Positions 11,809-62,526 of a stretch of DNA of 64,000 nt are shown here, one piece after another. The notes below the pieces were generated by a model. It saw nothing but the letters and a program-made list of their open reading frames with translations, did no database searches and was not told where the DNA came from. The first letter of the stretch is position 1. The number at the start of each line of letters is the position of its first letter. A program made the translations under genes and the position numbers. This DNA is from Maylandia zebra (Eukaryota; Chordata; Actinopteri; Cichliformes; Cichlidae). Location of the stretch: the NCBI RefSeq assembly GCF_041146795.1, contig NC_135183.1, forward strand, positions 10,342,840 to 10,406,839, read 5' to 3'.

Positions 11809-13225
11809 CAGTGGGGCAAAAAAGCATTTAGTCAGCCACCGATTGTGCAAGTTCCCCCACCTAAAATGATGACAGAGGTCAGTAATTTGCACCAGAGGTA
11901 CACTTCAACTGTGAGAGACAGAATGTGAAAAAAAAATCCATGAATCCACATGGTAGGATTTGTAAAGAATTTATTCGTAAATCAGGGTGGAAAATAAGTA
12001 TTTGGTCAATAACAAAAATACAACTCAATACTTTGTAACATAACCTTTGTTGGCAATAACAGAGGTCAAACGTTTACTATAGGTCTTTACCAGGTTTGCA
12101 CACACAGTAGCTGGTATTTTGGCCCATTCCTCCATGCAGATCTTCTCGAGAGCAGTGATGTTTTGGGGCTGTCGCCGAGCAACACGGACTTTCAACTCCC
12201 GCCACAGATTTTCTATGGGGTTGAGGTCTGGAGACTGGCTAGGCCACTCCAGGACTTTCAAATGCTTCTTACGGAGCCACTCCTTTGTTGCCCGGGCGGT
12301 GTGTTTTGGATCATTGTCATGTTGGAAGACCCAGCCTCGTTTCATCTTCAAAGTTCTCACTGATGGAAGGAGGTTTTGGCTCAAAATCTCACGATACATG
12401 GCCCCATTCATTCTGTCCTTAACACGGATCAGTCGTCCTGTCCCCTTGGCAGAAAAACAGCCCCATAGCATGATGTTTCCACCCCCATGCTTCACAGTAA
12501 GTATGGTGTTCTTGGGATGCAACTCAGTATTCTTCTTCCTCCAAACACGACGAGTTGAGTTTATACCAAAAAGTTCTACTTTGGTTTCATCTGACCACAT
12601 GACATTCTCCCAATCCTCTGCTGTATCATCCATGTGCTCTCTGGCAAACTTCAGACGGGCCTGGACATGCACTGGCTTCAGCAGCGGAACACGTCTGGCA
12701 CTGCGGGATTTGATTCCCTGCCGTTGTAGTGTGTTACTGATGGTGACCTTTGTTACTTTGGTCCCAGCTCTCTGCAGGTCATTCACCAGGTCCCCCCGTG
12801 TGGTTCTGGGATCTTTGCTCACCGTTCTCATGATCATTTTGACCCCACGGGATGAGATCTTGCGTGGAGCCCCAGATCGAGGGAGATTATCAGTGGTCTT
12901 GTATGTCTTCCATTTTCTGATGATTGCTCCCACAGTTGATTTTTTCACACCAAGCTGCTTGCCTATTGTAGATTCACTCTTCCCAGTCTGGTGCAGGTCT
13001 ACAATACTTTTCCTGGTGTCCTTCGAAAGCTCTTTGGTCTTGGCCATGGCGGAGTTTGGAGTCTGACTGTTTGAGGCTGTGGACAGGTGTCTTTTATACA
13101 GATGATGAGTTCAAACAGGTGCCATTCATACAGGTAACGAGTGGGGGACAGAAAAGCTTCTTACAGAAGACGTTACAGGTCTGTGAGAGCCAGAGATTTT
13201 CCTTGTTTGAGGTGACCAAATACTT
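11809..13225 (-). mobile_element. Tc1/mariner element with one recognisable terminal repeat
   Basis: The left end starts CAGTGGGGCAAAAAAGCATT directly after a TA dinucleotide (11807-11808), as expected for Tc1 elements. It continues with family-typical 'ttagtcagccaccgattg' and an inner 'aagtatttggtcaataac'. On the other side the inner match ('gaccaaatacttac', 13211-13224) is present, but the sequence then diverges and the distal inverted repeat is absent. The element carries a complete transposase frame on the minus strand. With one end lost it should not be able to move by itself, although its transposase could act on other copies. Confidence 0.85.
12025..13047 (-). CDS. Tc1-family transposase, intact frame
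   Basis: The frame is 340 residues, the usual length for fish Tc1 transposases, and runs without a stop or frameshift. The N-terminal third (about residues 1-115) holds two helix-turn-helix DNA-binding regions, including [14 protein letters not shown] and a GRPR-like hook seen as RSGAPRK near residue 58. The catalytic domain shows WSDE (D153), HDNDPKH (D244) and PIENLW (E279). There are 34 residues between the second D and the E, so this is DD34E. A glycine-rich KHGGGN segment lies between the first two acidic residues. The protein would cut and paste elements with matching inverted repeats in the nucleus. The start MAKTKELS is the normal family start. The intact frame suggests a fairly young copy, but expression cannot be judged. 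Confidence 0.9.
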
Positions 13226-20042: not shown

Positions 20043-20220
20043 GCCTTTAAAATGTAAAAACAAGAGTAACATAAAACACGCAAAATACACAATCCGAAAT
20101 AATAGATTATTTTAATATTAATATGACAATTGTCTTTGTCTTATTATACAAACAAAATATTGTATTTTTTCATGTCTAATGCATTTTCATGATAATTAGT
20201 AAAATGACTCTGTCCTCTCA

Positions 20221-21292
20221 TACGGTGTACATTTTAGGACATCGTCAGGTATCAGACAAAAAATTGTCAGGTGTCAGTTGTCAAAAAAAAAATTGTCAGG
20301 TATCAGAAAAAAAATTGTCAGGTGTCAGAAAAAAAATTGTCAGGTGTCAGTTGTCAAAAAAAAAAAAGTCAGGTATCAGAAAAAAAATTGTCAGGTGTCA
20401 GAAAAAAAAATTGTCAGGTGTCAGAAAAAAAATTGTCAGGTGTCAGTTGTCAAAAAAAAAAAAGTCAGGTATCAGAAAAAAAATTGTCAGGTGTCAGTTG
20501 TCAAAAAAAAAAAAGTCAGGTATCAGAAAAAAAATTGTCAGGTGTCAGAAAAAAAATTGTCAGGTGTCAGGTGTCAGAAAAAAAAATGTCAGGTATCAGA
20601 AAAAAAATTGTCAGGTGTCAGACAAAAAAGTTGTCAGGTGTCAGAAAAAAAATTGTCAGGTGTCAGAAAAAAAATTGTCAGGTGTCAGTTGTCAAAAAAA
20701 AAAAGTCAGGTATCAGAAAAAAAAATGTCAGGTATCAGAAAAAAAAATGTCAGGTGTCAGACAAAAAAGTTGTCAGGTGTCAGAAAAAAAATTGTCAGGT
20801 GTCAGACAAAAAAGTTGTCAGGTGTCAGAAAAAAAAATTGTCAGGTGTCAGTTGTCAAAAAAAAAATTGTCAGGTATCAGAACACAAGGTACCAGAGAGA
20901 AAATCTTCCTGCAGGTGGCGCTGTTGTCATGTCCCACCCGAATTGATTTCCAAATATGTCATCAACGTGTGACCGTGGGAGAGCGTAAGGTCATTGACCT
21001 CACCGGAGTTTTACCGTGGTTCAGGCTCCTAACGACACAAGGTAAGTTTAACTTTTTCTCCCTTTTGTTCATATTTTTGCCACAGTTGTGTTATATTAAG
21101 TTGCAGTTATGTTGTGAAAGTTACATATCAGAGACGGAAAGCCAGTTTTGTACGAAACCAAATCAGTACTATTTTTGTCTGGCTAATTCATTCTAGCTAG
21201 CGACAGTGGTGAAACGTGATTCAAATTTAAACTGTTCAGTAATTGTTTTGTATACATTTCAGCAAATGGACAAGCTGAAAGCTCACGAGCAG
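20221..21292 (+). repeat. left terminal inverted repeat, with candidate promoter, first exon, intron and ATG
   Basis: The outer 25 bp and the inner 410 bp (about 20880-21292) match the right repeat (26958-27445) in inverted orientation with only a handful of substitutions. A consensus splice donor (ACACAAG/GTAAGT, exon end 21041) and an acceptor (CATTTCAG, exon start 21263) lie inside the repeat, followed by CAAATGGACAAGCTG with an ATG at 21266-21268. Promoter, 5' exon and first codons therefore seem to be part of the inverted repeat. The left copy is more than twice as long as the right because of an expanded tandem array. Confidence 0.75.
20245..20881 (+). repeat. subterminal tandem array, about 22-bp unit
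   Basis: Roughly 25-30 units of the form GTCAGGTGTCAG plus an A-tract plus TT are arranged head to tail. Variants have GTATCAG in place of GTGTCAG, GACAAAAAAG spacers, or an added GTTGTC. Variant units alternate in a higher-order pattern, which points to expansion by unequal exchange or slippage. The right terminal repeat keeps only about three units (27369-27424). Because 22 is not divisible by 3 and the units lack stops, all three forward frames stay open for 220-335 codons; these are not genes. Repeated subterminal motifs in DNA transposons often bind transposase, which is an inference here. Confidence 0.9.
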
Positions 21293-21919
21293 CCTGCATC
21301 CTTTCTGTCGCTCTTTTTCTTTATTTCTCTTTTCTATATTGCTGCTGTCGGGATATTTTTTGATCCCGATATGTTTTTTTCTGTTGTTGTTTTTAGACTT
21401 TGCTGCAATATGTCATCTGACGATGATGAAAGGAGTATCCGACTCTGGCTGGTTCCCATGACTGTACCAAAAATACTTTTTTTTTTTTAATTAAAAAAAG
21501 AGCATTAAAAATAAATGACTAAAGTACAACTTATTTATTAACTACTGTTCACCTCTTTCATATCAAAGAAGTGTATTTTTTGCTACACATGTTTTATTTG
21601 TGGGCACTGAATAGACGATGCTTTTAGTGTAATTGCCACATAAAAAGATTTAGTACTTTACTGGTTAATTACTTATGTTCAGTGTAAGAGGTGGGTGATC
21701 AATTAGACTGTTGTTGTTACACTTAACCTTTCAAGATATGATGATAATAACATTGTTCAACAAAGGCTTAAAACAAAAGGAAATCAGCTGTGCACTGAAT
21801 TCATATGGGCATAAAATAAGGTAAGTCTGCATTTCAACAGTTTCCGTGACAACTCTCTAAAATGACAAAACATGCAGTTTGCATTTAATATAATGTAAGT
21901 CTGTGTTGTCTTTTAACAG
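21293..21919 (+). other. 5' part of the transposase gene, exon structure unresolved
   Basis: The frame of the ATG at 21266 stays open to 21490 through a very T-rich stretch, which is unlikely to be coding throughout. A T-rich acceptor ('gttgttgtttttag', exon start about 21397) leads into CAATATGTCATCTGACGATG, which could encode an acidic N-terminus (MSSDDDERSIRLWL). No strong donor closes it. The N-terminal exon or exons of the transposase must lie here but cannot be fixed by eye. Confidence 0.4.
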
Positions 21920-24900
21920 TGAGAGGCATCTGAGATGAGTTTTAAAACTTCTAGGGTTGAAGCGAATATGCCCCCAACGACCTTTTACTGAAATCCACAA
22001 AGCTGTGGAGGTAAGCGTTAAAACATCAGTGCAAAAAATATATATTTTCCTGAAGTCTGTGTCGTGAGCTATTGTAGAAACAATAAATGTTATTTTCTGT
22101 AGTGATTTAAAAAAAAAAAAAAACATTCAATTGTCTGTTTGTTTGCTTTTTAGAGTGAGATGAAACAGTGGTCTCCTGAACAAGGAATCAGGGCAATGGT
22201 AAAGCGGGTAAGGGATGTCAGAGGAGTGCGGCCTTGTTACAGGTTGGTTAAATAGTGTGTATATGATCAAGTGTTCTCTTGTTTTACTGTTGAGCTCAGA
22301 GTAAAATCTATTGTTACTGTAGAGACGATGTTGCTAATATAATGAGGTATATGGATGCAAGTGGTCTTCAGAGGAGATCTCCTGGAAAGAAGAAAATTCC
22401 CTGTCGGAATTACATCAGCCGTGGTCCAAATGACACACGGCACATTGATGGTATTTATTTTATCTTTTCAATTAACCTTCCAAACATGTTTTGATGGTAC
22501 TTCTGTTGAAACAAATTGTAATTATTATTTGTTGTTTCATATAGGCAATGATAAACTGAAGTTCTTTGGAATGTGGATACATTTGGGGATTGATGGGTAG
22601 GTTTGAATATGGCATTCGCTACTTAATTTATTATATTCAGTGATAGTACAAAGTTGCTTCAAGATAAGGATGTGCGGTAAACTGAGGTGTTATCTCTCCT
22701 GAGTAGTCTAGGGCAGGGATGGGCAAGTCCAGGCCTCGAGGGCCGGTGTCCTGCAGGTTTTAGATGTGTCCTTGATCCACAGCTGATTCAAATGGCTAAA
22801 TTACCCTCACAACATGTTTTGTAGTTCTCCAGAGGCCTGGTAATGAACTAATCATTTTATTCAAGTGTGTTTACCCAGGGTGATATCTAAAACATGCAGG
22901 ACACTGGCCCTCGAGGTCTGGATTTGGCCAAGCCTGGTCTAAGGGACCAAGATAAAGTATGAATAGTGAAGGAGGATTCAAGATGGCGGTTTTTAAAAGG
23001 CTTATTTCCTGCTAGTCTTAAAGTTCCATTTCAGACTGGCAGTTAATTTCAGGGAGGGCCAAGACCAACACAACAAACAAAACATCCCTGATATAAAGTA
23101 AACAGAATTTAACTCCAAAGAAAATAAAATGTACAATTTACGATAACCTACCTAACCAACACATAAACAGGAGAATACAAGGGATTACAAAACAAAAGGC
23201 AGCTCTCCCCTCGCGTCAGTCTGAACACAGTCAAGAGTCACATTCAATTCCAAAGGCATGTAAGCCTACACAACTATGGCAGTCAAAATGGCCGGAGGAA
23301 CCAGAAACAACGCCTAGACATAATACAATGGAAAACCAGCATACTCTTGGGGAATGTAACAAAAACCAAACATAGTGCCAAAACATGATTAAATCATATG
23401 TACAAGTGGCCACTTTTCTGTTTCTTTCTTTTCAGATTTTCCAGGAAGGTTCTATGGCTAAAGGTGGGCACATCCAACCGCAAGCAAAACTTTGTGGCCA
23501 GATACTTCTTTGAGGCTGTTCAAGAACAGGGTGGTATGCAATATACTAAAAAATGGGGGTTTAAAAAAGATTACATTTTGTTAATAAATTTATTTTTTCA
23601 TCATTCACTAATTATCTTCAGTTTGTGTCTTTAGGCTGTCCTCAAATGATTCGGGGGGACAGAGGAAAGGAGAACCTTGTTGTGGGTCAAATGCAGATGG
23701 CATTTCACATGCGAGATCTTGGGAATCAGGCATGGAGGTGCTTCAGAATGGGGACATCAGTGCACAACCAGGTATGTCTTTAAGCTGGTAAATGACTATT
23801 TCTAAAGTAACAACCTGACAACAAAACTGATAATGTCATGTTTCTGTTGTTTAGAGAGCTGAATGTTTCAACAGTATTTTAAAGCGGACATGGATTAAGA
23901 AATGGCTGACACCATTTGAGGTAAAGCAAATCTTTCACCTGTAAAACCTATTAACAAAGAGTAGCCATCCAAATTTCGTTAAACATACGATGGATTAGTT
24001 TATCTGAAAACACAAGGCCAGAATCTGTGTTTATGTACATCTGTACCTTTTCACTAATGAAATTCTCACCTTCACAACTTATGTCTTTTTCAAAACAACA
24101 TGCGTAGGCCATGATGGAGTCTGGGATCCTTGAACTGGACAATCCTGTGCACATGTAAGTCAATATTTTTAGACATGAAAAATAATCAAGCAGCAGTATG
24201 AAAGTATGTGGTCTAGGAATGCCTTTGTTTTTTGAGTACTGATTAAAATTTAGCTTTTACTTATTCTACCTCAAAGAAGCAGATGAACATATTAATTTTT
24301 TAATTCTCCTTTTTCATAGCAACTGCTTGCAGTACTCACACTTGCCACTGCTTCAAAGAGACTTAAAAACGGAGCAAACAGTTTGGAACACCCATGACAT
24401 CCGCAAGCAACGCAATGCACCTGGTCCATTTGGGAAACCCGACCTTCTGTTTACCTCACCACCTCCTGGTATGTCATTTGAAAGCCTGTGGGGTTTTATT
24501 TTTTTGTTTGTTTTTTTAACTTTCATTAGTTTACTTTTACTTTGATATAGCACTCTTCACAGGATAAAAACCACAAAGTGGCTTCACAATAATATAAAAC
24601 AGATAAACATAAAACAGCACAATCGAACATACAGAATAAATGCAATCAAGGAAACGTAATGATGGAGGCAGAGCATTCCATGACCTGGGAGCCACCGCTT
24701 TGGAAGATCTCTTGCCTCTGGTCTTCTGGTGGGACTACTAACAGCCATTGATTAGATGATCACAGGCTGGGAGAGGGAGCGTGGGGTTCTATAAGATCAG
24801 AAATTAAGGCAGGAGCTTCACGATTCGGAGCATTGAAAGTCATTACTAAAATTTTTAAATGAATTTTCTAAAATATACTGGAAGCCAGTGTAATGAGCGT

Positions 24901-25510
24901 AAAACTGTTATAATGTGTTTTCTCTTTTGTGTCTTCCGAAGAAGCCTACTTGTAGTACAATAAGAGATTTCTGAATTTCTACTGTCAATACTAAAATGGC
25001 TTCATATTGACACCTTTAACTAAAAATTTATCTAAATGTTTGAGTGATATTTCCATCTTTAAGTTTCTGTAATAACATCTGTAAACACTGACTGCTTCTT
25101 ATACAGGTTCTAGAACAGCTTTGTCATTATTCATTTATTTTTAACATTCAAAGTGAACATCTTTTCAATATTGTCTTTCATTCGCAGGATATGGCAATGT
25201 ACTGCACATTGTTGACCCAGACCTTTTAGACTATGCCAAGCAATTAATCTGTGAGAGGGAAGAGCCTTCACTGGTAGCAAACCAGGAATTCAGAGACATG
25301 TGCCAGAACATTTTAGAAAACAGCCAGTTTCCCTGCACACCTGATGGTTGCCTTGCTGCATACCTCATGCTAGTCCAAGAGCTCACAACTGCCATGAACA
25401 GAAATGCAGTTCCTACACTTTCTACGTTTGCCGAGGCAAATGACATATACATCTTTCTGAAGAGAGAGAGGATGGAAGGTGCACCAGTAAACATTTCCAA
25501 TGACCAATAA
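21920..25510 (+). CDS. integrase-like DDE transposase gene, ten visible exons
   Basis: Exons with GT/AG borders and consistent phase are 21920-22010, 22154-22242, 22323-22450, 22545-22596, 23436-23533, 23635-23771, 23855-23920, 24108-24154, 24320-24468 and 25188-25510 (stop TAA 25508-25510), about 390 residues in all. The first exon reads a helix-turn-helix-like LKLLGLKRICPQRPF. The catalytic core is of the retroviral-integrase/IS481/IS3 type: GPNDTRHIDGN (first D), LGIDGFSRKVLWLKV, RGDRGKEN (second D) and TSVHNQRAE (E, 39 residues after the second D). The C-terminal exons are highly conserved in style but I cannot name them. It would cut and join the ends of the element in the nucleus. Only one defect is seen: an in-frame TGA at 21936-21938 in the first listed exon. 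All later exons are intact. An AATAAA overlaps the stop. It converges on the kinase gene. Confidence 0.8.
22714..22936. mobile_element. hAT MITE (223 bp) inside a transposase intron
   Basis: The ends CAGGGATGGGCAAGTCCAGG and GGCCAAGCCTG are inverted repeats that continue inward over 'cctcgagggcc', 'gtgtcctgcagg' and 'ttttagat'. The flanks GTCTAGGG (22706-22713) and GTCTAAGG (22937-22944) are an 8-bp duplication with one mismatch, as expected for hAT elements. This family is abundant in fish. It lies within the intron between 22596 and 23436, so it arrived after the host transposon. Confidence 0.85.
24541..24900. repeat. interspersed repeat fragment in the last transposase intron
   Basis: Phrases such as 'gatatagcactcttcacagg', 'acaaagtggcttcacaataa', 'gagcattccatgacctggga' and 'ggaagccagtgtaatgag' belong to a common teleost repeat, probably a LINE tail. 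It lies within the intron 24469-25187 and is non-coding. Confidence 0.55.
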
Positions 25511-25734
25511 AATCATACAACAGTGTTTGTTAACATTTATTTATCCTTGTTTAAAATCAACAGGTAATTTGAAAACTGTCTGACCAACAAAATGTACAAT
25601 AAAATGTTGAAATACAATTGACAAGGTGCCATCTTTCATAATGATTCAGTGTTTCATTTACCACAACTTTTGTTAACAATAATGTAGAACATAATTCACA
25701 TTGAAAGACTTTTGAACTGCAGACTGTAGCAACA
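25511..25734. promoter_or_regulatory. convergent 3' ends of transposase and kinase genes
   Basis: The 224 bp between the two stop codons contain AATAAA signals for the plus strand (25506-25511 and near 25600) and TTTATT, an AATAAA on the minus strand, near 25535. The two transcripts would overlap tail to tail. No further coding sequence is seen. Confidence 0.5.
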
Positions 25735-26844
25735 TTACCACTTGTAGCCATATCGGCTCGTAAGATCAAGGCCTGACTTGAGAAACTTAACAACATCAGA
25801 TGCGGAAGGCCTTGAGTCTGGGTCATAGCTCACCAAACCACCAAGAAAACTGTTTTTGTCACTGAGATGTGATAGGGCATGTGGTGGGTTTTTGGTGGCC
25901 ATTAGTGCAGCCAGTTCTCTTTGTTTTTTAACCATCCACGGAGCGGAACCCGTCAGGATCTCCAGATATGTGGCTCCGAGGGACCACATGTCTGTCTGGA
26001 ACGAGGCCTCTTCAAACATCAGTATGCATTAAGGGGCCATGTAAAGATATGTGCCACCAGCTGGACCAGTAGCCTGGGCAGTGAACTTACTCCCTTGACG
26101 AAGCATCACAGTGTCTCTTATGTTTGCCATGCCCCAGTCTGTCAGGACTGCCTTCTTAGAAGGGTGGTGAACCTATAAGGTATACATATGAGAACTTACC
26201 AGGTTGTCTAAAATTTCACAAATGTTATCAAAAATGTCATTCCAAAGACCACAGCTCATAATTGGGGAAAAAAAAAAACCCTCAAAGCTTTTAGCACCCA
26301 GATCACCCAATCACTGCAGATTTATTCTGAGATTGTTTATTATACCCAACATTAAAATTAACAGATTGGTTAATGATCCAACCCGGTTTTATAGTCCTGT
26401 GCATTTTTTAATCCCCATTCCACTTAAGCAAGTGGTACAGACTAATAAAAGAATAGAAACTTTCAGTTTGTAAAGCCTAAACTTACAACATGTTTGGGAA
26501 TTTTGTAGGTGTGCAAGAACCAACATATTAAAGAAAAATTGGACTATTAAAGAAACAATGTAAGGCTTCTTACTTTAAAAAAAAAATCCTTTATATGAAT
26601 ATGCCAGAAAAGTGTCTCATTGTTCAAATGTAGTGTTTAATAGACTGAAGAGAATAAAGTTAAATAAATAATATACTATTTTTATTTTGATCTTCAAAAA
26701 CAAAGTGGAGAAAAAGAAAAATACAATATGGCTTACCATGACATTTGCTGGCTTTATATCCTGGTGAATGATTCTCTGTGCATGGATGTACTCTACTGCC
26801 ATGGATAAGTCCAGTGATATGAAACCGGCATCATCCCCTTCAAG
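25735..26844 (-). pseudogene. Ser/Thr protein kinase C-lobe, broken
   Basis: Two exons join in phase: 26844-26737 (donor GTAAGC) and 26172-25735 (acceptor TTATAG). The first reads LEGDDAGF and so on and AVEYIHAQRIIHQDIKPANVM, the catalytic loop with HQD in place of HRD, keeping the Asp, Lys and Asn. The second continues VHHPSKKAVLTDWGMANI, with DWG in place of DFG (metal-binding Asp kept). It then has GPAGGTYLYMAP and a TAA (26029-26031) where the APE glutamate codon is expected. After the stop come FQTDMWSLGATYLEILTG (helix F motif, DxWSLG) and DPDSRPSASDVVKFL (subdomain XI arginine). The N-lobe with glycine loop and VAIK lysine is absent. In this copy the kinase is dead; intact copies elsewhere might phosphorylate host or transposon proteins. 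A protein kinase carried by a DNA transposon is unusual. Confidence 0.75.
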
Positions 26845-26929
26845 CTATCGGGACAATATATAATATTAATAAAACAATGCATAGCCAGGTGTGACAATCT
26901 AACATGTCTACCACTGGAAATGTATTACT

Positions 26930-26986
26930 TCAAATAGGATTAGTATTCAAATGCAACTGCTCGTAAGCTTTCAGCTTGGCCATTTG
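26930..26986 (-). pseudogene. kinase-side first coding exon, truncated
   Basis: On the minus strand a CATTTCAG acceptor precedes CAAATGGCCAAGCTG, the mirror of the transposase-side start (ATG at 26983-26981). Homology to the left repeat stops after GAGCAG (26958). The frame then reads only eight more residues before TGA at 26930-26932, and no donor is seen before the stop. I infer that the sequence linking this exon to the kinase exon at 26844, including the N-lobe, was deleted. Confidence 0.6.
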
Positions 26987-27445
26987 CTGAAATGTATACA
27001 AAACAATTACTGAACAGTTTAAATTTGAATCACGTTTCACCACTGTCGCTAGCTAGAATGAATTAGCCAGACAAAAATAGTACTGATTTGGTTCCGTACA
27101 AAACTGGCTTTCCGTCTCTGATATGTAACTTTCACAACATAACTGCAACTTAATATAACACAACTGTGGCAAAAATATGAACAAAGGGGAGAAAAAGTTA
27201 AACTTACCTTGTGTCGTTAGGAGCCTGAACCACGGTAAAACTCCGGTGAGGTCAATGACCTTACGCTCTCCCACGGTCACACGTTGATGACGTATTTGGA
27301 AATCAATTCGGGTGGGACATGACAACAGCGCCACCTGCAGGAAGATTTTCTCTCTGGTACCTTGTGTTCTGACACCTGACAACTTTTTTTCTGACACCTG
27401 ACAATTTTTTTTCTGATACCTGACGATGTCCTAAAATGTACACCG
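26958..27445 (-). repeat. right terminal inverted repeat
   Basis: It is the inverted counterpart of 20221-21292, with the same splice donor (exon end 27208, GT at 27207-27206), the same acceptor and the same ATG context, but only about three units of the subterminal array. The few differences from the left copy include 'atacgtc' for 'atatgtc' and GCC for GAC in the second codon. The outermost TA is now found at 32047-32048, beyond the LTR element. Confidence 0.8.
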
Positions 27446-27634
27446 TGTAACATGTTGACTCATGTGTGTATCAGCCACTAGATGGCACTGTGTTGCTGCA
27501 ATGTGTGTAATTCACTCGCGAGCAAGAAGCTTCAGGGGCAAGAAAAAAGAATACGAAATAAAGTGGAATCGGAGCAGAGTTTGGTGTGTGCGTGCAGTTA
27601 GTAAGAAGCTCGGTATACATACAAAAACAACACA
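27446..27634 (+). repeat. 5' LTR
   Basis: It starts TGTAACATGTTGACTCATG and ends ACAACACA, with an AATAAA at about 27556. It differs from the 3' LTR by roughly 11 substitutions and no indels, nine of them within about 30 bp. Confidence 0.9.
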
Positions 27635-27652
27635 TGGTGTCAGAGTAGCGGA
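27635..27652 (+). promoter_or_regulatory. primer binding site, tRNA-Leu type
   Basis: TGGTGTCAGA follows the 5' LTR directly. The first ten bases are the complement of the 3' end, with CCA, expected for vertebrate tRNA-Leu. The next bases match less well, with a small gap. Minus-strand cDNA synthesis would start here. Confidence 0.65.
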
Positions 27653-27687
27653 TTCTACGCAATCCCTCGCCGTCGGACAGCGCAGAC

Positions 27688-28644
27688 ATGGAGGCTTACG
27701 GCGTTCCCACACCGCGTATGGATTGGGACTCCAGCAACCTGCCCGAGACATGGCGGCGTTTCAAGCAGCACGCCGAGCTAATGTTCGCTGGTCCTCTTCG
27801 GGGGAAGGAGGAGGCAGACAAATGCAGCTACCTTCTTCTATGGGTCGGTGAGAAAGGACGGGACGTCTACAACACGTGGACGCTCACCGCAGACGACTCC
27901 CGAAAGCTTCAGACGTACTACGATAAGTACACTGATTACGTCATACCGAAAGCTAACCCAATCTACGCCCGATATAAGTTTCATGAAAAGATGCAGGGTG
28001 AAAATGAGACATTTGAACAGTTTATTACGGAACTGAAACTACTTGCTAAAGACTGTGGGTACCCAAATACAGATGAAATTGTCAGGGATCGCATTGTATT
28101 TGCCACTAACTCGCCACACGTCCGAGAAAAGCTACTCAGCCAAGGCGCAGAGCTCACGCTAGAGAAAGCTATAGATATAGCACGATCACACGAGCTAGCA
28201 AAGCAACAGCTAAAAACTATGGGTCACTCCAGGGGCCAAGAAACTGTGCACGCCATCGGCAGGAAATCGCACAGACAAGAATATCAAACAAGAAGCGTGA
28301 GACCAAAAGAACACGCTAATGCAACACTAAAAACGTGCAGCTATTGTGCCGGACAACACAGTAATAAAGACACCTGCCCAGCAAAAGGGAAGCAATGTGC
28401 AAAATGCAAGAAAATGAACCATTTTGCGAGAGCATGCAGGTCAAGACTCCCTCCGCAGACAAAAGCCCACCTCAAATCAGTACACACTGTGAGAGAGAAC
28501 ATAGAAATGTCAACTATAGACACAGATGAGGACCAAGACTGTTTCTACATTGATAGCATCACCATAGAAAATGAAGGAAGAAAGGATGAGCAAGCATATG
28601 CAGACATGCAGCTTGGTTCCCCCCCCACAGACAGTGAGGTTTAA
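27688..28644 (+). CDS. gag: Gag of the Ty3/gypsy element
   Basis: The 318-residue frame carries a capsid-like region (about 17-170, with NETFEQFITELKLLAKDCGY) and a nucleocapsid region. The second zinc knuckle is standard (C237-x2-C240-x4-H245-x4-C250). The first Cys/His cluster (C217, C220, H224, C230) has unusual spacing. Gag would form the intracellular particle and bind element RNA. The frame ends at TAA 28642-28644, shortly after an eight-C run (28619-28626), and overlaps the pol frame. Confidence 0.85.
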   Translation: MEAYGVPTPRMDWDSSNLPETWRRFKQHAELMFAGPLRGKEEADKCSYLLLWVGEKGRDVYNTWTLTADDSRKLQTYYDKYTDYVIPKANPIYARYKFHEKMQGENETFEQFITELKLLAKDCGYPNTDEIVRDRIVFATNSPHVREKLLSQGAELTLEKAIDIARSHELAKQQLKTMGHSRGQETVHAIGRKSHRQEYQTRSVRPKEHANATLKTCSYCAGQHSNKDTCPAKGKQCAKCKKMNHFARACRSRLPPQTKAHLKSVHTVRENIEMSTIDTDEDQDCFYIDSITIENEGRKDEQAYADMQLGSPPTDSEV

Positions 28645-29941
28645 AGTTGACACTGGGGCGCAAGCAAACACAATTCCAGCCAACATGTTCCAGACACTCT
28701 TCCCACATGTGACACTGAAGCCTGTCACACACAAGCTCACAGATTACGGGGGACACTCACTCAGCATGGAAGGGAAATGTCAGCTAAAATGCAAACACAA
28801 AGACAAAACCTGCACGTTGGAATTCCATGTTGTTAACACAAGCGCCCCACCTGTATTAGCAATGAAAGCTTGCCGTGACCTTAACCTGGTAAGGATTGTG
28901 ATGGCAGTGACGGAGGAAAGAGGCAAGACAACCAACAGTTCACAGGCAATACTAGACGAATATGCAGACGTATTCAAAGGGATAGGAGAATTTCCTGGTG
29001 AATGCAGTTTCCATGTAAATCCAGACGTTGCACCCACAGTCAGCCCACCTCGTCGGATTCCCATTGCTCTGCGAGCCCGACTCAAAGACGAGCTCGACAA
29101 CATGGAAAGGAACCAAATCATATGCAAGGTCACAGATCCTACGGACTGGGTGAATGCACTTGTTGTCGTGGAAAAACCCAAGACGGGCAGACTCAGAGTA
29201 TGTCTGGACCCCAGACCCCTCAACAAGGCTATACAAAGACCCCATTACCCTCTACCCACCTTAGAGGATGTCACCACAAAACTTGCTGGGGCCAAGTATT
29301 TCAGTGTTTTGGACGCCAGATCAGGCTACTGGGCCATTAAGCTAAGCCACGAATCATCTCTGTTAACCACATTTAATACTGTGTTTGGCAGGTACCGCTT
29401 CCTCAGGTTGCCATTCGGCATAATCTCAGCTCAGGATGAGTTCCAGCGACGCGTGGACGAGACCTACGAGGGCCTGAGGGGCGTGGCAGCCATTGTGGAC
29501 GACGTACTGGTCTTCGGAGAAACCAAACAGGAGCATGACGACAACCTGAGGGCCATGCTGCAGCGCAGCAGAGAGAGAGGTGTAAAACTGAACCCTGACA
29601 AGTGCACCATCTGCGTCAAAGAGGTCAGTTACTTCGGTCACACATTGTCACACGAAGGGCTGAAACCAAATCCACAAAAAGTAAAAGCAGTCCAAGACAT
29701 GGCGCCCCCACAGAACAGGGCGGAATTGGAAACAGTGCTGGGGATGGTTAATTATTTAGCAAGATTTGCCCCACACCTGTCAGAGATAAACGCACCGCTC
29801 CGCCAGCTGTTAAAGCAGGACAGTGAGTTTGTATGGGACAAGAACCATGACAGAGCCTTTCAACGAATGAAGGAGCTGATCACTAAAGAACCAGGCCCAG
29901 TTCTCTCCTTCTTCGACCCCAAGAAAGCGCTACGACTGTGA
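28571..29941 (+). CDS. pol: Pol, protease and reverse transcriptase part
   Basis: The frame lies +1 relative to gag. The aspartic protease motif is FKVDTGAQANTIP near the start. Reverse transcriptase follows, with LRVCLDPRPLNKAI, FSVLDARSGYWAIKL, FLRLPFGIISAQDEF and the catalytic VDD box (AAIVDDVLVFG), then the thumb and connection regions. Translation probably enters this frame from gag near the C8 run, so the ATG at 28571 may not be used. The frame stops at TGA 29939-29941, exactly where the first RNase H catalytic Asp should follow. This is the signature of a small out-of-frame deletion. Confidence 0.85.
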   Translation: MKEERMSKHMQTCSLVPPPQTVRFKVDTGAQANTIPANMFQTLFPHVTLKPVTHKLTDYGGHSLSMEGKCQLKCKHKDKTCTLEFHVVNTSAPPVLAMKACRDLNLVRIVMAVTEERGKTTNSSQAILDEYADVFKGIGEFPGECSFHVNPDVAPTVSPPRRIPIALRARLKDELDNMERNQIICKVTDPTDWVNALVVVEKPKTGRLRVCLDPRPLNKAIQRPHYPLPTLEDVTTKLAGAKYFSVLDARSGYWAIKLSHESSLLTTFNTVFGRYRFLRLPFGIISAQDEFQRRVDETYEGLRGVAAIVDDVLVFGETKQEHDDNLRAMLQRSRERGVKLNPDKCTICVKEVSYFGHTLSHEGLKPNPQKVKAVQDMAPPQNRAELETVLGMVNYLARFAPHLSEINAPLRQLLKQDSEFVWDKNHDRAFQRMKELITKEPGPVLSFFDPKKALRL

Positions 29942-31620
29942 TGCTGCAGGACGGCAAGCCAGTTGCCTACGCATCCAAGTCACTTAACAGCACTGAGCAG
30001 AACTATGCCCAAATAGAAAAAGAGCTGTATGCTGTTCTCTTTGGTTGCAAGCGGTTCCACGAGTACATGTACGGTCGACATGTGACCATTGAGTCGGACC
30101 ACAAGCCACTCGAGTCCATACTCAAAAAACCACTAGCATCAGCACCACCACGGCTACAGAGGATGATAATACAGCTGCAAAAGTACGACATCAGCATCAT
30201 CCACAAGCCAGGGAAAGACATCCCGGTAGCCGACACGCTCTCCCGGAAATCCATAGAGTTTCACGACAAATCACTATGTGACGGGATGGATGCGCAGATC
30301 CACTCAGTCCTCAGCAACATGCCTGTCAGTGATCAGAGACTCTCAGAGATAAGAAACGAAACAGCCCAAGATCCTCAGCTCAACAGCCTGAGACGGACCA
30401 CACTGAGTGGATGGCCTGATAAACGGTCTCAATGTCCGCCTGACATTCAGGAGTTTTGGAACCACAGGGATGAGATCTCACTGATAGACGGGATCATGTT
30501 TAAAGGAGAGAAAATGATCATCCCAAAAAGGCTCAGAAAGGACATGATAGATCGGATTCATTCCAGCCATATGGGCATAGAAAAGAGCAAAAACAGAGCC
30601 AGAGACCTTCTGTTTTGGCCAGGCATGGGAAAGCAGATTGAGGAAGCCGTCGGAGCCTGCAGCACATGCCAGGAGAGACAAGCTGCTAACCCCAAGGAAC
30701 CCCTGTTGTCACATGCAATACCAGAACGACCGTGGCAGGTCATAGCCACCGATCTGTTCACTTGGAACTCGGAAGACTACATCATCATGGTAGATTACTA
30801 CAGTAGATTCTTCGAGTTGGAAAGACTCCGCAGCTGCACTGCAGAAGCAGTGATCCACAAACTAAAGTCAGCCATGGCTAGGCATGGTATTCCAGAGTCG
30901 GTGATTAGTGATAACGGTCCGTGCTATGCTTCCAGTAAGTTTCAACAGTTCGCAAAGTCATGGAGTTTCACCCACACCACTACTAGTCCCCATTACCCAC
31001 AGAGCAACGGCCTAGCCGAGAAAACAGTCCAGACAGCAAAGAAACTTCTGGACAAGGCCAAAGCGGAACATAAGGATCCCTACTTGAGCCTATTAGAATA
31101 CCGGAACACCCCCGTTGACAACTTAAAGTCGCCTGCACAACTACTCATGAGCCGGAGACTTCGCTCCATCCTCCCTGCAACACCAAAACAGCTGGAACCC
31201 CAAGTAGTTTGCCAGCAAACAGTGCGTGAGAGGAGAGAGGTCTGCCAGCAGCGCCAGCAGACTTATTTCAACAAAGCCGCCCGACCTCTGCCTCAACTAT
31301 GTCCTGGCACACCGGTCCGGTTCCGGCAACAAGACGGTTCCTGGAAACCAGCTGTGGTCACAAGTTGTGCCGACACGTCCAGAAGCTACAACATAACCAC
31401 AGATACAGGACAAGTTTACCGGCGTAACCGCCGACACCTCCGCAGAAGCAGGAACAGCGTAGGAGGTGAGGAGTTCATTCAACCAACAGGCATCAGCGAT
31501 GACAGCCCTGTGGTATCTCAGCCCCCGCCTGTGGAGCCCCCTGGTGAAGACATTACAACACCTGGATACACGACTCGATATGGGCGTGTTACCAAACCAA
31601 GACAGGTCTTGGACCTGTAA
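29938..31620 (+). CDS. pol: Pol, RNase H (N-terminus lost) and integrase part
   Basis: The frame starts inside RNase H (MMLQDGKPVAYASKSL), so the first catalytic Asp is missing. The later motifs IEKELYAVLFGCKRF, TIESDHKPLESIL and VADTLSRK are present. Integrase has a zinc-binding region (H-x3-H-like IHSSHMG and CSTCQE), then the DDE core: ATDLFTWN, ISDNGPCYAS and SNGLAEKTVQ. A C-terminal domain (GTPVRFRQQDGSWKPAVV) resembles the GPY/F module. Ends at TAA 31618-31620. It overlaps the upstream frame by four bases, which is an artefact of the deletion. Confidence 0.85.
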   Translation: MMLQDGKPVAYASKSLNSTEQNYAQIEKELYAVLFGCKRFHEYMYGRHVTIESDHKPLESILKKPLASAPPRLQRMIIQLQKYDISIIHKPGKDIPVADTLSRKSIEFHDKSLCDGMDAQIHSVLSNMPVSDQRLSEIRNETAQDPQLNSLRRTTLSGWPDKRSQCPPDIQEFWNHRDEISLIDGIMFKGEKMIIPKRLRKDMIDRIHSSHMGIEKSKNRARDLLFWPGMGKQIEEAVGACSTCQERQAANPKEPLLSHAIPERPWQVIATDLFTWNSEDYIIMVDYYSRFFELERLRSCTAEAVIHKLKSAMARHGIPESVISDNGPCYASSKFQQFAKSWSFTHTTTSPHYPQSNGLAEKTVQTAKKLLDKAKAEHKDPYLSLLEYRNTPVDNLKSPAQLLMSRRLRSILPATPKQLEPQVVCQQTVRERREVCQQRQQTYFNKAARPLPQLCPGTPVRFRQQDGSWKPAVVTSCADTSRSYNITTDTGQVYRRNRRHLRRSRNSVGGEEFIQPTGISDDSPVVSQPPPVEPPGEDITTPGYTTRYGRVTKPRQVLDL

Positions 31621-31852
31621 TATTGTAAAGGGTGCAGGCGGATCGCTGCCCTAGAAAAAAAAAAAGGCTGTTTATATGTTTGTTGTTCCAATGATGTCAC
31701 TAAATGCATCTGTTTATTATGTTTGTGATATAGCCAGTATTGAGTCGAATGCTATGTTATCAATGGATGTGCTCAGGATGTTATTCCTGTAATTTCAGTT
31801 GCCTTAGAAATTTTACAAGCCTGAGTTGTGTTTTTCTTTTTAAGAAGGGAGA
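31621..31852 (+). other. 3' untranslated region with polypurine tract
   Basis: The region holds no gene. The bases AAGAAGGGAGA directly before the 3' LTR are a polypurine tract, the expected primer for plus-strand DNA synthesis. Confidence 0.7.
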
Positions 31853-32041
31853 TGTAACATGTTGACTCATGTGTGTATCAGCCACTAGATGGCACTGTGT
31901 TGCTGCAATGTGTGTAATTCACTCGCGAGCAAGAAGCTCCAGAGGAAATGGAGAAGTAGACGAAATAAAGTGGAATCGGAGCAGAGTTTGGTGTGTGCCT
32001 GCAGTTAGTAAAAAGCTCGGTATACATACAAAAACAACACA
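31853..32041 (+). repeat. 3' LTR
   Basis: It is 189 bp, starting TGTAACATGTTGACTCATG and ending ACAACACA. CACCG follows directly as the target duplication, and then the last two bases (TA) of the host DNA transposon. Confidence 0.9.
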
Positions 32042-32054
32042 CACCGTACTCTCA

Positions 32055-57241: not shown

Positions 57242-58312
57242 TTAAATGATGATTATTTGACGGGTCAAGGAAGAGGGCGAAACAGGCTCTTCACCATCAC
57301 TGATGACATTGGCCCAAGCTGAAGACAGTCCTTGCAAGAATGATTTTGCTGCAGTGATCAGAGGATTGCCTAGCTCCGTATAGTCAAGCCGTCGTGGCGG
57401 ACGACGGTTTCTCTCAGATCTCCTTACAGAATCATTTGTATCCATGTTTTCCCTTGTATCCACTGGGACTATCTCCTCCATTCTCTCCTCAGGATTCGCA
57501 CCTCTGGTGCCAGCCTCCTGAAATGGAAGTTGCCTTTCTTGGACGTCTGGGTCATCAACAGGTGAGTCATTTTCAGTTAAGGTTATTTCATCCACTTGTT
57601 CGGTCGGTGTGACTCCATTGGCAGATAAGTACTCAGTATCATCTGTAGTACTGTTAGGCATATCAGGTATGTTGCTAAAATCAGATTGGCTGTCAAAAAC
57701 AGGTGGGTTGTCAATATCAGGAACATTGACAGGACTCTCACTCACTGTGTGGACAGGGGAACTCAACCAAACAGGAATGAGCAAATCATCTTCTTCGTCT
57801 GAGGAGTTCTCTTGCTCTAGCGCTGGATTTGCACGGGTTCTTGGCCTGCGTGACACTGGCTTCTGTACATGCTCACTGCTTTCCTCCACAGGTAGGTAGC
57901 CACATGGTAGCAACAGATCCCGGTGTAGTGTCCTTAGGGGACCATCTTTGTTTTCAGGCTTAACCGTATATACTGGGAGGTTGCCTGCCCTTCTCACCAC
58001 TACATGCACAGTGTGTTCCCACTTGTCTGAAATCCTATGTTTGCCCCGGATACGGACATTCCTGACCAATACCCGATCTCCAGCTTCCAAGTCTGAGGCA
58101 GTTACATGTCTGTCAAACCTCATTTTGTTCTTGTGAGCTATCTTTGCAGCCTTGTCCATAGCTAACTTGTAGCTTTCTTTGAGACGTGACTTGAGTTTTT
58201 GCACATATTCAGAGTGAGATGAGTGTTGTTCCTCTTGCACTGGCAGGTTGAATGCAAGGTCAACTGGCAACTGAGGTTGGCGTCCGAACATCAGTTCGTA
58301 CAGGGTGAAACC
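57242..58312 (-). CDS. pol: Ty3 Pol, C-terminal part of integrase
   Basis: The frame resumes the integrase after the insertion: TLYELMFGRQPQLPVDLAF, then a helical region, a DNA-binding SH3-like part (LEAGDRVLVRNVRIRGKHRI, KWEHTVHVVVRRAGNLPVYT) and the HRDLLLPCGYLP motif. A long acidic, low-complexity tail with an arginine-rich block (RRSERNRRPPRRLDY) follows. The stop is TAA at 57242-57244. The apparent ATG at its start is created by the end of the inserted LTR and is not the native start. Confidence 0.8.
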   Translation of the reverse strand, partial: GFTLYELMFGRQPQLPVDLAFNLPVQEEQHSSHSEYVQKLKSRLKESYKLAMDKAAKIAHKNKMRFDRHVTASDLEAGDRVLVRNVRIRGKHRISDKWEHTVHVVVRRAGNLPVYTVKPENKDGPLRTLHRDLLLPCGYLPVEESSEHVQKPVSRRPRTRANPALEQENSSDEEDDLLIPVWLSSPVHTVSESPVNVPDIDNPPVFDSQSDFSNIPDMPNSTTDDTEYLSANGVTPTEQVDEITLTENDSPVDDPDVQERQLPFQEAGTRGANPEERMEEIVPVDTRENMDTNDSVRRSERNRRPPRRLDYTELGNPLITAAKSFLQGLSSAWANVISDGEEPVSPSSLTRQIIII

Positions 58313-58746
58313 TGTCATGGCTCGCTGCGTGGCAGGCAGGATGAGGACCCAATCGCAAAACTCACGGACTCAAGGGATGAACTCAAAAGGCAGCTTTATT
58401 GCTGACAAGATGACAGGAAAATACAAAACTTAAACTGGGAACAATAAACTAATACTTGGAGAGAGACACAGGGAAATCCACGCAGCATGAGGGAGAACGC
58501 GACACAGAACTGAGGAAGACGCAGACATAAATACACAGAGGGTTAACGAGGGAAGTGGGAGCACACGGGGAACACAGGTGACACTGATAATCATAACAAG
58601 ACACGGCAGGAGTGAACGCAACACTAACGGGAGACGGGCAAAGTAAAACAGGAAGTACAGAGGTTCAGACAGGAGGAGAGAGCGCATGGGGAGAACACAG
58701 ACATAACGGGCTGGGGAAAACATAGAATAAAACACAAAGAGAGACG
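58313..58746 (-). repeat. 3' LTR, truncated
   Basis: It matches 61919-62352 at more than 98 percent by eye. At 58747 the match stops and internal sequence begins, so about 170 bp of the U3 start, and with it the polypurine tract, are missing. Confidence 0.85.
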
Positions 58747-61164
58747 TGCTGGCCATGGCCCGGTGGGCACAGGACCAGATGAGGCAGGGCCAGACGAGGC
58801 AGGACCAGACTGTGGCGATGCGGGGGCCGGACCAGGCGTCGCTGCAGAGGCTGAGGCTGGACCAGGCGATGGCGAAGCAGGAGCTGAGGCTGAGGCCGGA
58901 CTGGGCGAAGCACAGGCCGAAGCAGGACCAGGCGGAGCAGAAGCAGATGCTGGAGCTGGACCAGGCGAAGCCGGGGCCAGACCAGGCAACGACGGGGCCG
59001 GACCAGGCGACGACGGGGCCGGACCAGGCGACGACGGGGCCGGACCAGGCGACGCAGAAGTAGATGGTGGCTGGACGGGCTCCCCGGGCCCTCCAGCGGA
59101 GACGAGGAGGTGCTGGCCGGGCTGACCTGAGCCGCCAGCAGAGACGAGGAGCGGCTGGAGAGGTTCCCCTGAACCCCCAGCGGAGACGAGGAGCGGCTGG
59201 AGAGGTTCTCCTGAACCCCCAGCGGAGACGAGGAGCGGCTGGAGAGGTTCTCCTGAACCCCCAGCGGAGACGAGGAGGTGCTGGCCGGGCTGGGCAGAGC
59301 CGCCAGCGGAGACGAGGAGGTGCTGGCCGGGCTGGGCAGAGCCGCCAGCGGAGACGAGGAGCTGCTGGAGGGGTCCTCCTGAACCCCCAGCGGAGACAGA
59401 TGCAGAGCCAGCAGGTGCAGAGACTTCTGGCTGAGGGGACGCCAACTGTAGCTGCACAGGGCACGCAGTCGGCTTAGGATGCAACGGCTGGGGCTGTGCA
59501 GGGCAAACAGTCTGTCCAACGTTTGTCAGTACCATGCAGTCCACAGCTGGCGGAGAAAGCTCACAAAGGCTTCCAGCTGAGGTTGGCAGTAACTGAACAG
59601 GTTGCTGAGCTACTAACTGAGCTGGTGACCAAACAGGGAACTGGGCTGATAACTGAGCTAATGACTGTGCTGAGGACAGAAGTGCAAGTTGTAGTGGTGG
59701 TTGTAGTGATGGTGGAACAGCAGGTAGTTGAACTGATGACTGAACAGGTGACTGACTCCTGGCTGCTCTCCTCCGAGGAACAGGAACGGGTGCTGGGCCT
59801 GGCCGAACACCAGTCATCCCCACCCGAGAAACAGATACGGGTGCAGGGGCGAGCTGGGCTCTGGCTGCCTTTACCCTGGGGGCCAGTGTAGGTGCAGGAG
59901 CTAGCTGGGCCTCTGCTGCTCCCACCCGAGGGACTGAGACGGGTGCAGGAGTCGGCAGGGTCACAGTAGACCTCACCCAGGGAACCGGAACTGGCGCAGG
60001 CATAGGCTGGGCGTCCATCAACCCCACCCGAGGGGCAGGTACGGGTGCCGGGATGAACAGCGCCTCTGCCAAGCTGGGGACAGAAGCAGGGACCAGCTGG
60101 ACCTCAGCCACCCTCTCCCGAGGAACTGATACGGGAGCAAGGGAAAGCCGGGCCCGCGCTGCCCTGGTTACAGGAACTGGAGGCGGAGAGCGAAGCACAG
60201 GAACAGTAACAGTCACTGGGTGAACCAAGTTGGTGGAGCCAAACACAGTTTCAGTAAACAGAGACTTATGGTGGGCTGGTTCTAGCAACTCTGCTGTACT
60301 TAAGTTGTCCGTGTCATAATTAGCAGTTTTGGAAAGAGTGAGTTTAGGTACAGCCACAGGTACAGGAGAACTCACACAAGCAGCGTCAGGATAATCTGGA
60401 TGTGAGACAACACTACATACAGACGTACAGGATGTAGTCCGAGACGTAGTGCACACAGAGTCCATGAAACCTGGCCAAAAAGCATGGCGCAAAGAGTTAA
60501 ACTGACATGAGTGTGGAACAGAAAATTTAACCTGTGCAAACAGTTCTGCAGTGCTCAAACTAAGATCTTTTGCCAGTCTCTGTATGGCAGATGAAACCTT
60601 GCGGCTCTTAACCTTAGCAGGCATTGAATACACAGTCTCGAGGAGTCCACGAGGAAAAACAGAAGCAGTTTCCTGCTTAGCAGGCACGAGAGGAGGTGAG
60701 TTTACACAGGTAGCGTCCGAGTTAGCACTTTCAAGTTGTGGCACAGGAAAAACCACAGCCTGAGAAACTGAAGGAGCAACACTGGGAGTCACAGATACAA
60801 GAGCTGGTTTAAAGATTAAACTGTTCATAGCAGAGGAATGGCTACTAGTCTCTGTGTCACCTGGCTCAGGCAGAACGCTAAGCGTAGATGTTAAGTTGGC
60901 TGGCTCAGCAACACAGGTCTTGTTCTCAGTAACTCTCTGAAGAGCTGCGAAAGCAGTGGCTGGTTGAGGAGTTGGCTGAGAAATATCAGGAATGTCTAAA
61001 GACAAACTAGGCTGGAACATGAAACAGTCACTAGGAGGAGCATTAGCTATAGAACATATGGTTTCAGGGTGTATGAGTTTCTCAGCATGCACTGTTACAT
61101 GTAGAGCTGATGATACTGATGGTGTGTGGCTGGGCTCAGACTGGAAAATCCAAAGGCTGAGCAA
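58747..61164 (-). CDS. long proline-rich frame of the non-autonomous LTR element
   Basis: The open frame runs 846 codons from 61164 and reads on into the LTR, stopping at 58624. It is rich in Pro, Ala, Ser and Val with repeated PxPVPVPR-like motifs in its middle. Near its C-terminus lie about eight 14-residue units (type LLVSAGGSGEPLQP, 42-bp DNA repeat, about 59090-59400) and several 7-residue units (type SPGPAPS, 21-bp repeat, about 58980-59060). No zinc knuckle or catalytic motif is seen. The frame is closed upstream by a shift relative to the 61136-61924 frame. It could be a structural Gag-like protein or simply tolerated open sequence. Confidence 0.5.
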
Positions 61165-61900
61165 AACAGTTCTGCGGGGCTACAATGCTGGTAGCAGTAT
61201 GTAGGGGAGTCTGGTGTGAAATAACAGTCTTAGGTTCAGCTAACTCAACAGGGGAAGCATTCATACCGGCTGAAACAAAGGAAATACTGCGAGCATTACA
61301 AGAATCTGACGGCTCAGAAACACAAAGATCACTGGTGAGAGCTACGGCTGAATAATCTGACACTGAGGTGCCTCGCTGTACAGCGTCTCTGGAGTCCAAA
61401 CAAAAAGCGGCGGAATTATCCGAGTCAGGTAACACAACGGCGGGGAAAACGGAGCCACTCACAGTAGTGCATAGGTCATGAAGTTCGGGTCCCGAAAACT
61501 TGGGCGGAGTGTGTGACGCACAGTCACTCTCTCCCACAGGTGCAGCCCGCTCAGCAGTACTGGCGCAACGGCGGCGTGAACGCCGTTTTCGCCGAGAGGG
61601 GGGAGGAGATGAGCCGGGCCGCGAATCCTCCAGCGGACCGGGCTGAACGTCCTCTGACCCCTCACACTGGAGAGGCAGCTCCGGGCGGACGCCTACGGTG
61701 GAAACGAGAAAGTCCCGGATGTGGGGGCGCAGCGCGCCGAACAGCCACGGGAGTCCGGACACCATCCGCTGTAGACGGACGGCTACGACCTCCCGGTGTT
61801 CGTCTCCTGGCAGCGCCTCCCACTCCTGACAGTGGTACTCCACCGTATAGATCAAATCCTCCCGGAGCTCAGCGGAGGGGTTGTGAGTCGCTGGGTCCAT
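61136..61900 (-). CDS. Gag-like N-terminal frame of the non-autonomous LTR element
   Basis: From ATG GAC CCA just behind the 5' LTR the frame reads MDPATHNPSAELREDLIYTV, then YHCQEWEALPGDEHREVVAV and a region predicted as helical up to about residue 90. Arg-rich SRRKRRSRRR and Ser/Val-rich sequence follow. It ends at 61136, where the next frame overlaps with a one-base shift, so the two may once have been a single protein of more than 1000 residues. A position directly after the LTR suggests a Gag role, by analogy only. Confidence 0.5.
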   Translation of the reverse strand: MDPATHNPSAELREDLIYTVEYHCQEWEALPGDEHREVVAVRLQRMVSGLPWLFGALRPHIRDFLVSTVGVRPELPLQCEGSEDVQPGPLEDSRPGSSPPPSRRKRRSRRRCASTAERAAPVGESDCASHTPPKFSGPELHDLCTTVSGSVFPAVVLPDSDNSAAFCLDSRDAVQRGTSVSDYSAVALTSDLCVSEPSDSCNARSISFVSAGMNASPVELAEPKTVISHQTPLHTATSIVAPQNCFAQPLDFPV

Positions 61901-61918
61901 GTCGTGGTCGCGTTCTTC

Positions 61919-62521: not shown

Positions 62522-62526
62522 AAACC

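Follow-up and report, generated by a model that had tools for sequence, protein, structure and literature searches.

A protein kinase gene resident in an IS3EU-type DNA transposon of the cichlid Maylandia zebra

When a protein kinase gene is found between the inverted repeats of a DNA transposon, does it belong to the element, and what might it do there? The question is raised by a locus of the cichlid Maylandia zebra, at positions 20221-32048 of a 64,000-nt stretch of contig NC_135183.1 (hereafter the window). The element begins with TACGGTGTAC and ends with GTACACCGTA, two mirror-image termini. A sequence-only reading of the window had proposed that the kinase is cargo of the transposon and not a host gene lying nearby. 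The results presented here demonstrate that the kinase is resident in a recently active vertebrate lineage of IS3EU-type transposons, with complete and intact copies elsewhere in the genome. Its role is discussed in the last section.

Genomic distribution of the kinase gene

A genome search with the kinase domain gave at least 55 matches at an expect value (E) of 1e-10 (best 138 of 301 candidates scored), and a search with the transposase gave at least 104 rows (best 98 of 331 candidates scored). The strong matches to the C-terminal lobe (C-lobe) of the kinase, at least 13 in number, were located in 13 element copies, between the element ends, and 41 rows of the transposase search placed exons of this family's transposase at these same loci. 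Kinase exons were therefore carried by 13 of 13 loci with a transposase of this family, in agreement with the proposed status of cargo. The other kinase matches corresponded to further exons of those copies, single-exon fragments, one fragment of 75% identity and three kinases at 28-32% identity. No meaningful transposase match was detected in the 5 kb examined at the 75% fragment (C23:2266293). Apart from this fragment and those of the element, the matches at E 1e-10 or better stayed at 28-32% identity, and no single-copy host source of the kinase was found. Capture of a host gene by the window copy only is ruled out by these genome-wide searches. The transposase rows also included at least 63 from other families of the Pfam domain rva_4, at 30-39% identity.

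Copies were also collected from their ends. A query of 371 bp from the left end gave at least 82 matches (best 40 of 100 candidates scored), which were grouped by reading into 28 loci. Twenty-five of these were examined: the window copy, 13 further two-ended copies (a first set, from 20 regions around the best matches, making 14 two-ended copies with the window copy) and a second set of 11 loci. The kinase was expected to recur in many copies, and kinase sequence was indeed present at 19 of the 25 loci; the six loci without kinase were also without transposase. In the second set, both ends were found at five of the 11 loci, each with a matching target site duplication (TSD); one kinase exon without transposase was found at five of the 11, and neither gene at six. 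One copy of the first set, C14b, has a kinase exon only.

All 14 two-ended copies display TACGG..CCGTA termini at both ends, the last 2 bp of the window copy being located beyond a long terminal repeat (LTR) element insertion. Perfect 6-bp TSDs abut the ends in 11 of the 14. In copies C22 (CTGCAG) and C16 (CTGCTG) the TSD is likewise perfect but is separated from one end by an additional GTA or TAC (a 3-bp repeat of the terminus), and five of six positions match in C24. Among 18 TSDs, C24 being excluded, the first position is C in 16 and the second T in 12, and A occupies the fifth position in nine and G the sixth in 16; the preferred target is thus a symmetric CTNNAG-like hexamer.

Six copies (C11, C4, C21a, C22, C20 and C13) are full-length. 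They measure 11,243-11,437 bp and, with gapped columns set aside, share 99.71-99.96% identity. Each contains an open transposase frame of 429 codons and an open kinase frame of 579 codons, the latter in 11 modelled exons with canonical introns; for each protein, one residue differs, in one copy. The transposase and kinase genes run inward from twin ends and meet tail to tail, with the TSDs enclosing both, and they lie on opposite strands in 13 of 13 copies holding both. The kinase start codon of the full copies is located inside the right terminal inverted repeat (TIR), and the first 27 coding nucleotides are mirrored in the left TIR. Concerning the intactness of the N-terminal lobe (N-lobe), the expectation held in part: a complete intact kinase is present at six of the 13 transposase loci, and the N-lobe is deleted in the window copy.

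Several loci near element ends, without transposase match, keep a single kinase N-lobe exon of about 164 bp at 98% identity (L026 on C14b, and L033-L036 and L042-L047 on C15a, C22b, C1, C8 and C21c). Further matches to a single N-lobe exon were observed on C2, C3, C6 and C7. The loci with only this exon are probably non-autonomous families derived from the kinase half of the element.

The window copy and its derivative subfamily

The features of the window copy are as follows.

20215-20220, no strand: left TSD, CTCTCA, direct 6-bp repeat
20221-21292, plus strand: left TIR, containing the subterminal repeat array
20244-20882, plus strand: GTCAGGTRTCAG repeated in tandem (exact units: 27 at the left end, 3 at the right end)
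21410-25510, plus strand: IS3EU-type DDE transposase gene, 12 coding exons with GT-AG introns, 429 codons, stop at codon 43
21936-21938, plus strand: premature in-frame TGA of the transposase (codon 43)
25735-26172, minus strand: last kinase exon, covering DWG, APE and the C-terminal RYGYKW, followed by TAA
26737-26844, minus strand: kinase exon with the catalytic loop HQDIKPAN
26956-26957, no strand: junction of a 3,309-bp deletion common to six copies, where the end of kinase exon 1 and all of exons 2-9 are missing
26957-27445, minus strand: right TIR, broken near its outer end by an LTR element, containing the kinase start codon
27446-32041, plus strand: Gypsy-like LTR retrotransposon, LTRs at 27446-27634 and 31853-32041, TSD CACCG at 27441-27445 and 32042-32046
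32047-32048, no strand: final two bases (TA) of the transposon, beyond the LTR insertion
32049-32054, no strand: right TSD, CTCTCA, direct 6-bp repeat

The CTCTCA duplications and the long inverted repeats that had been described as bracketing the element are real, the 13 further two-ended copies excluding chance. The span of 20221-32048 was correct at its two ends; however, 27446-32041 is a separate retrotransposon, with its own TSD, and the transposon itself measures 7,227 bp. A single transposon of 11.8 kb is thus ruled out. The nested element is about 4.6 kb long, contains an RVT_1 match within 28571-29938 and entered 2 bp inside the right edge of the transposon. Since it is nested in the transposon's right end, with LTRs (189 bp) that are 94% identical, it was inserted later than the transposon.

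The inner inverted repeats extend over 447 nt with 98% identity (20846-21292 and 26957-27403), and the outer arms over 56 nt with 98% identity (20222-20277 and 27391-27446). Subterminal units of 22/29 bp form an array of variable size: across the 14 copies, the number of exact GTCAGGTRTCAG units ranges from 3 to 31 at the right end and from 7 to 33 at the left. These units are candidate transposase binding sites. By comparison with full copy C22, the 27 nt with which the kinase coding sequence opens are mirrored at the inner edge of the left TIR, and this TIR likely contributes a 5' untranslated exon, with a splice donor GT at 21042.

A spliced DDE gene on the plus strand and a kinase C-lobe on the minus strand, both between the inverted repeats, had been read from the window, and this was upheld by Pfam matches. 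The transposase exons (21410-21434, 21736-21820, 21920-22010, 22154-22242, 22323-22450, 22545-22596, 23436-23533, 23635-23771, 23855-23920, 24108-24154, 24320-24468 and 25188-25510) encode a protein matching rva_4 at 8.2e-31, with 96% identity to P0001. The two C-lobe exons match Pkinase at 2.4e-25. A premature TAA at 26029-26031 falls at the expected position of the APE glutamate, and the glycine loop and the VAIK lysine are missing from the window copy together with the N-lobe. Given that both genes have a premature stop and the kinase lacks its N-lobe, the window copy is dead, judging from its sequence.

This copy belongs to a subfamily. The window copy, C24, C3, C17b, C21b and C16 share one deletion, corresponding to positions 6916-10224 of C22 (3,309 bp), which takes the kinase from within exon 1 to the end of the N-lobe. 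The transposase substitution W136R, relative to the full copies, is found in six of six deletion derivatives and in none of the seven other transposase-bearing copies. W136 precedes a conserved aspartate by three residues and shows a conservation of at least 90% across 22 relatives. P400L is present in all six derivatives and in C14a, which has a different deletion, and R124C in three of the six (window, C3 and C16). The transposase is also frameshifted in C24, C17b and C21b, and open in C3 and C16. The 7.2-kb form would thus be a non-autonomous derivative, mobilised in trans by full copies.

Elsewhere in the window, a Tc1/Sleeping-Beauty-like transposase with an unbroken 340-aa frame (HTH_SB, DDE_3) is located at 12025-13047 on the minus strand. 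Several long frames were found on the minus strand at 57242-63990, the last of which matches the RNase H and integrase of a second LTR-type element; tandem repeats of 21 and 42 bp occupy 58958-59397.

The two proteins, their relatives and known elements

The full-copy kinase (411-aa model) matches Pkinase (PF00069) at 2.4e-44, and the GEGTFG loop, AAVK, HQD, DWG and APE are present in six of six full-copy kinases. It is a complete protein kinase of conventional fold, for which catalysis is predicted. A Pfam search at E up to 5 gave no alpha-kinase match to this protein. Its structure model (P0072) has a mean predicted local distance difference test (pLDDT) score of 68.9, mostly above 80 in the kinase domain, and matches the solved structures of Lyn, BRAF and IRAK4. 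By sequence, the leading matches are EGFR, MST and RAF-type kinases (E 1.6e-24 to about 1e-20); since several types lead, the kinase is not called an orthologue of a known one. The catalytic-loop residues are invariant in an alignment of 15 kinase sequences. Three parts precede the kinase domain: the N-terminal module, then a middle domain (about 90 residues, MEWKPRT..), then a linker. The middle domain has no Pfam match, and model confidence is middling there. The transposase model (P0002, pLDDT 79.2) matches TnsB, the integrase of the foamy virus PFV and IstA, with low whole-chain TM-scores. Its two catalytic aspartates are invariant and its glutamate is at least 90% conserved among 22 aligned relatives. 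No Integrase_H2C2 match was obtained for the window transposase in Pfam.

The kinase starts with a module of about 35 residues that is homologous to transposase N-termini of related families. A profile built from five such N-termini (Melanotaenia, Rhinophrynus, Bufo, Esox and Erpetoichthys; a second Rhinophrynus protein was left out) finds the element's kinase at E 1.2e-13 (47.6 bits), and among 125 kinase proteins it also finds P0088 (9e-16), P0075 (1e-14), P0033 (0.0012) and P0063 (0.047), the last two truncated within the module. The best of 2,500 shuffled sequences reached 10.7 bits. The simplest reading of this distribution is exon exchange between the two ends, together with a common partner or mutual binding. 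A SHOCT-like identity of the module was considered and dropped in the absence of an acceptable Pfam match.

Relatives of both proteins were found in other fishes and in frogs, from cichlids to reedfish. The transposase search gave 32 proteins; for the kinase, a sequence search at E 1e-20 gave 36 and a profile search at E 1e-25 gave 496 (best 120 considered), the far end of the profile list including generic kinases. A transposase hit was obtained in 22 named species, 16 of which also have a kinase hit. Both genes are on contigs of equal size in seven of the 15 species with contig data; the pairs are from Paramormyrops, Notolabrus (two pairs), Triplophysa tibetana, Esox, Sarotherodon, Merluccius and Ranitomeya. 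Contigs of equal size are taken as the same contig, which would be weak evidence for those of chromosome size and strong evidence for the two short ones, in the hake Merluccius (206,484 bp) and the frog Ranitomeya (99,201 bp). The motif L(T/A)D(W/L)G(L/M)A occurs in 65 of 124 kinase-search proteins, and HQD in 44 of the 46 motif-bearing relatives in which HxD[ILV]KP was found. Transposase and kinase distances correlate, with r=0.61 (Mantel p=0.042) for 7 taxa and r=0.58 (p=0.0012) for 11 taxa; the pairs were hand-chosen with Sarotherodon left out, four of the 11 taxa are not same-contig pairs, and noise comes from a Triplophysa kinase without normal N-lobe and a fragmentary Merluccius transposase gene model.

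Related kinases, some with HQDIKPAN, were also noted in acorn worms, wasps and a metagenome (P0099, P0102, P0140, P0151 and P0097). Public gene sets label the relatives recovered by the kinase searches MAP3K2, mos-like, NPK1-like, CAMK1-like or plant-type receptor kinases. No IS3EU relatives were confirmed in viral contigs.

Judging by its 6-bp TSDs, its TACGG..CCGTA ends and its DDE transposase without HHCC domain, the element is of IS3EU type. In the accessible part of its description, the IS3EU superfamily (with GingerRoot) has TA..TA termini, usually 6-bp TSDs, TIRs and an integrase-like DDE transposase without HHCC domain (PMC10045372), as does the present element; that part of the source does not mention a kinase. 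Compared with this description, the M. zebra element adds a conventional protein kinase gene and tandem subterminal repeats. Polinton/Maverick and Ginger1/2 also have integrase-like transposases, with TSDs given in the same part of that source as 6 bp for Polinton, 4 bp for Ginger1 and 4-5 bp for Ginger2 (PMC10045372). Ginger is rejected on TSD length (4 or 4-5 bp versus 6 bp here). Polinton/Maverick shares the TSD length but is unlikely, the 11.3 kb being filled end to end by two gene models, although no search for DNA polymerase B or capsid genes was made.

The sequence-only reading knew of no described eukaryotic cut-and-paste family with a resident kinase, but kinase-bearing elements are in print for fungi. 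From the available portions of that report, every TET+ IS3EU family of fungi places a TET/JBP gene between a transposase and an alpha-kinase gene that are oppositely oriented, and those of rust fungi have TAYGG..CCRTA termini and 6-bp TSDs (PMC12730594). The ends, TSDs and kinase orientation are thus alike. However, the alpha-kinase has a different fold from the Pkinase (PF00069) of the fish element, which moreover has a module in common with transposases, and the gene models of the fish element include no TET/JBP gene. Styx of Zymoseptoria likewise combines an IS3EU-related DDE transposase with further genes between its TIRs; in the part of its description at hand it has four open reading frames, with no kinase named in the element, and its proposed IS3EU ancestor is reported to encode two proteins (PMC10853768). 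The additional Styx genes have GATA and CCHC motifs and DUF3577, whereas that of the fish element is a kinase. No vertebrate IS3EU element with a kinase was found among the papers listed by the searches of open-access literature. Kinase-bearing IS3EU elements are already known from fungi, and what appears new here is a vertebrate element with an unrelated kinase fold.

Possible roles of the kinase

This is a two-gene vertebrate cut-and-paste transposon of IS3EU type, and we consider it fairly probable that its kinase serves the control of transposition, by acting on the element's own transposase or on proteins bound at its ends. The transposase and the kinase would be co-expressed from the twin ends, and the shared module would recruit the kinase either to the transposase or to a partner of both. 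Phosphorylation of the transposase or of end-bound proteins by the kinase would then set the timing or efficiency of transposition.

Several observations weigh against this interpretation. In eight of the 15 species, the transposase and kinase listed lie on separate contigs. The gene models of many kinase relatives are incomplete or decayed: among the 65 carrying the motif, the N-lobe lysine motif was found in 30, the glycine loop in 26 and the APE in 54. Variable sites between the TIRs of the six full copies are too few to show selection (3 of 1712 in the kinase, 2 of 1290 in the transposase and 19 of 6422 in noncoding sequence), and a derivative without N-lobe has spread to at least six sites. 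No match to the family kinase lies within about 90 kb of the at least 63 other rva_4 loci, the two tables having been compared by eye; at one diverged rva_4 locus among these (L050), tblastn with eight kinases gave nothing better than E 0.34. The kinase is therefore tied to this lineage and is not a general requirement of rva_4/IS3EU elements. As for the module, it was found by pattern in six of the 32 transposase hits and two of the 124 kinase-search proteins, many of these partial, and the pattern locating the transposase N-termini was composed after the kinase N-terminus was known. This family has the module on its kinase and not on its transposase, so that docking via the module is hypothetical here.

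A kinase that belongs to the element could instead target the host, namely repair, cell-cycle, chromatin or silencing proteins, and make the nucleus permissive. This is the less likely alternative, although the kinase is complete, has a separate middle domain of about 90 residues and contains a basic stretch, RKKSQSKQRK, that is a candidate nuclear signal. A precedent is given by fungal IS3EU elements, which carry genes directed against host silencing, for example TET dioxygenases, in the portion of the report available (PMC12730594). However, the module in common with transposases points to the transposon's own machinery, and no result obtained here suggests a host target.

It is improbable that the kinase is a passenger, captured once between the ends and carried without benefit. 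The spread of the N-lobe-less derivative to at least six sites, the partial state of many kinase relatives and the absence of such a kinase from the other rva_4 families of the same genome fit a passenger. But the kinase is open in six of six full copies, its distances track those of the transposase, its N-terminal module is common with transposases, and it occurs in transposase-bearing species from cichlids to reedfish and in frogs, with an invariant catalytic loop over 15 sequences. A gene carried neutrally would be expected to have decayed over the span from cichlids to frogs, which disfavours this explanation. Finally, a host gene family merely inside or near a transposon, as the host-like names in gene sets (MAP3K2, mos-like, NPK1-like) might suggest, is hardly credible and is refuted for this genome, within reach of the searches, by the location of all of the at least 13 strong C-lobe matches between element ends and by the 28-32% identity of other kinases.

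Beyond control of transposition by the kinase of this element, a wider proposal is more tentative and, on balance, unlikely: that a resident kinase is recurrent in IS3EU, as a Pkinase in vertebrates and an alpha-kinase in fungi, both opposite the transposase, and that the vertebrate kinase docks via the module and phospho-regulates the transpososome. Host kinases have been implicated in the regulation of transposition. If the wider proposal is true, a cut-and-paste transposon would have a self-encoded phosphorylation switch. The fungal parallel points to a need for a kinase that has arisen repeatedly. A vertebrate element with its own intact kinase in fresh copies makes phospho-control testable with two genes and two ends. 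Moreover, fish and frog proteins named MAP3K2-like, mos-like or NPK1-like are probably transposon genes.

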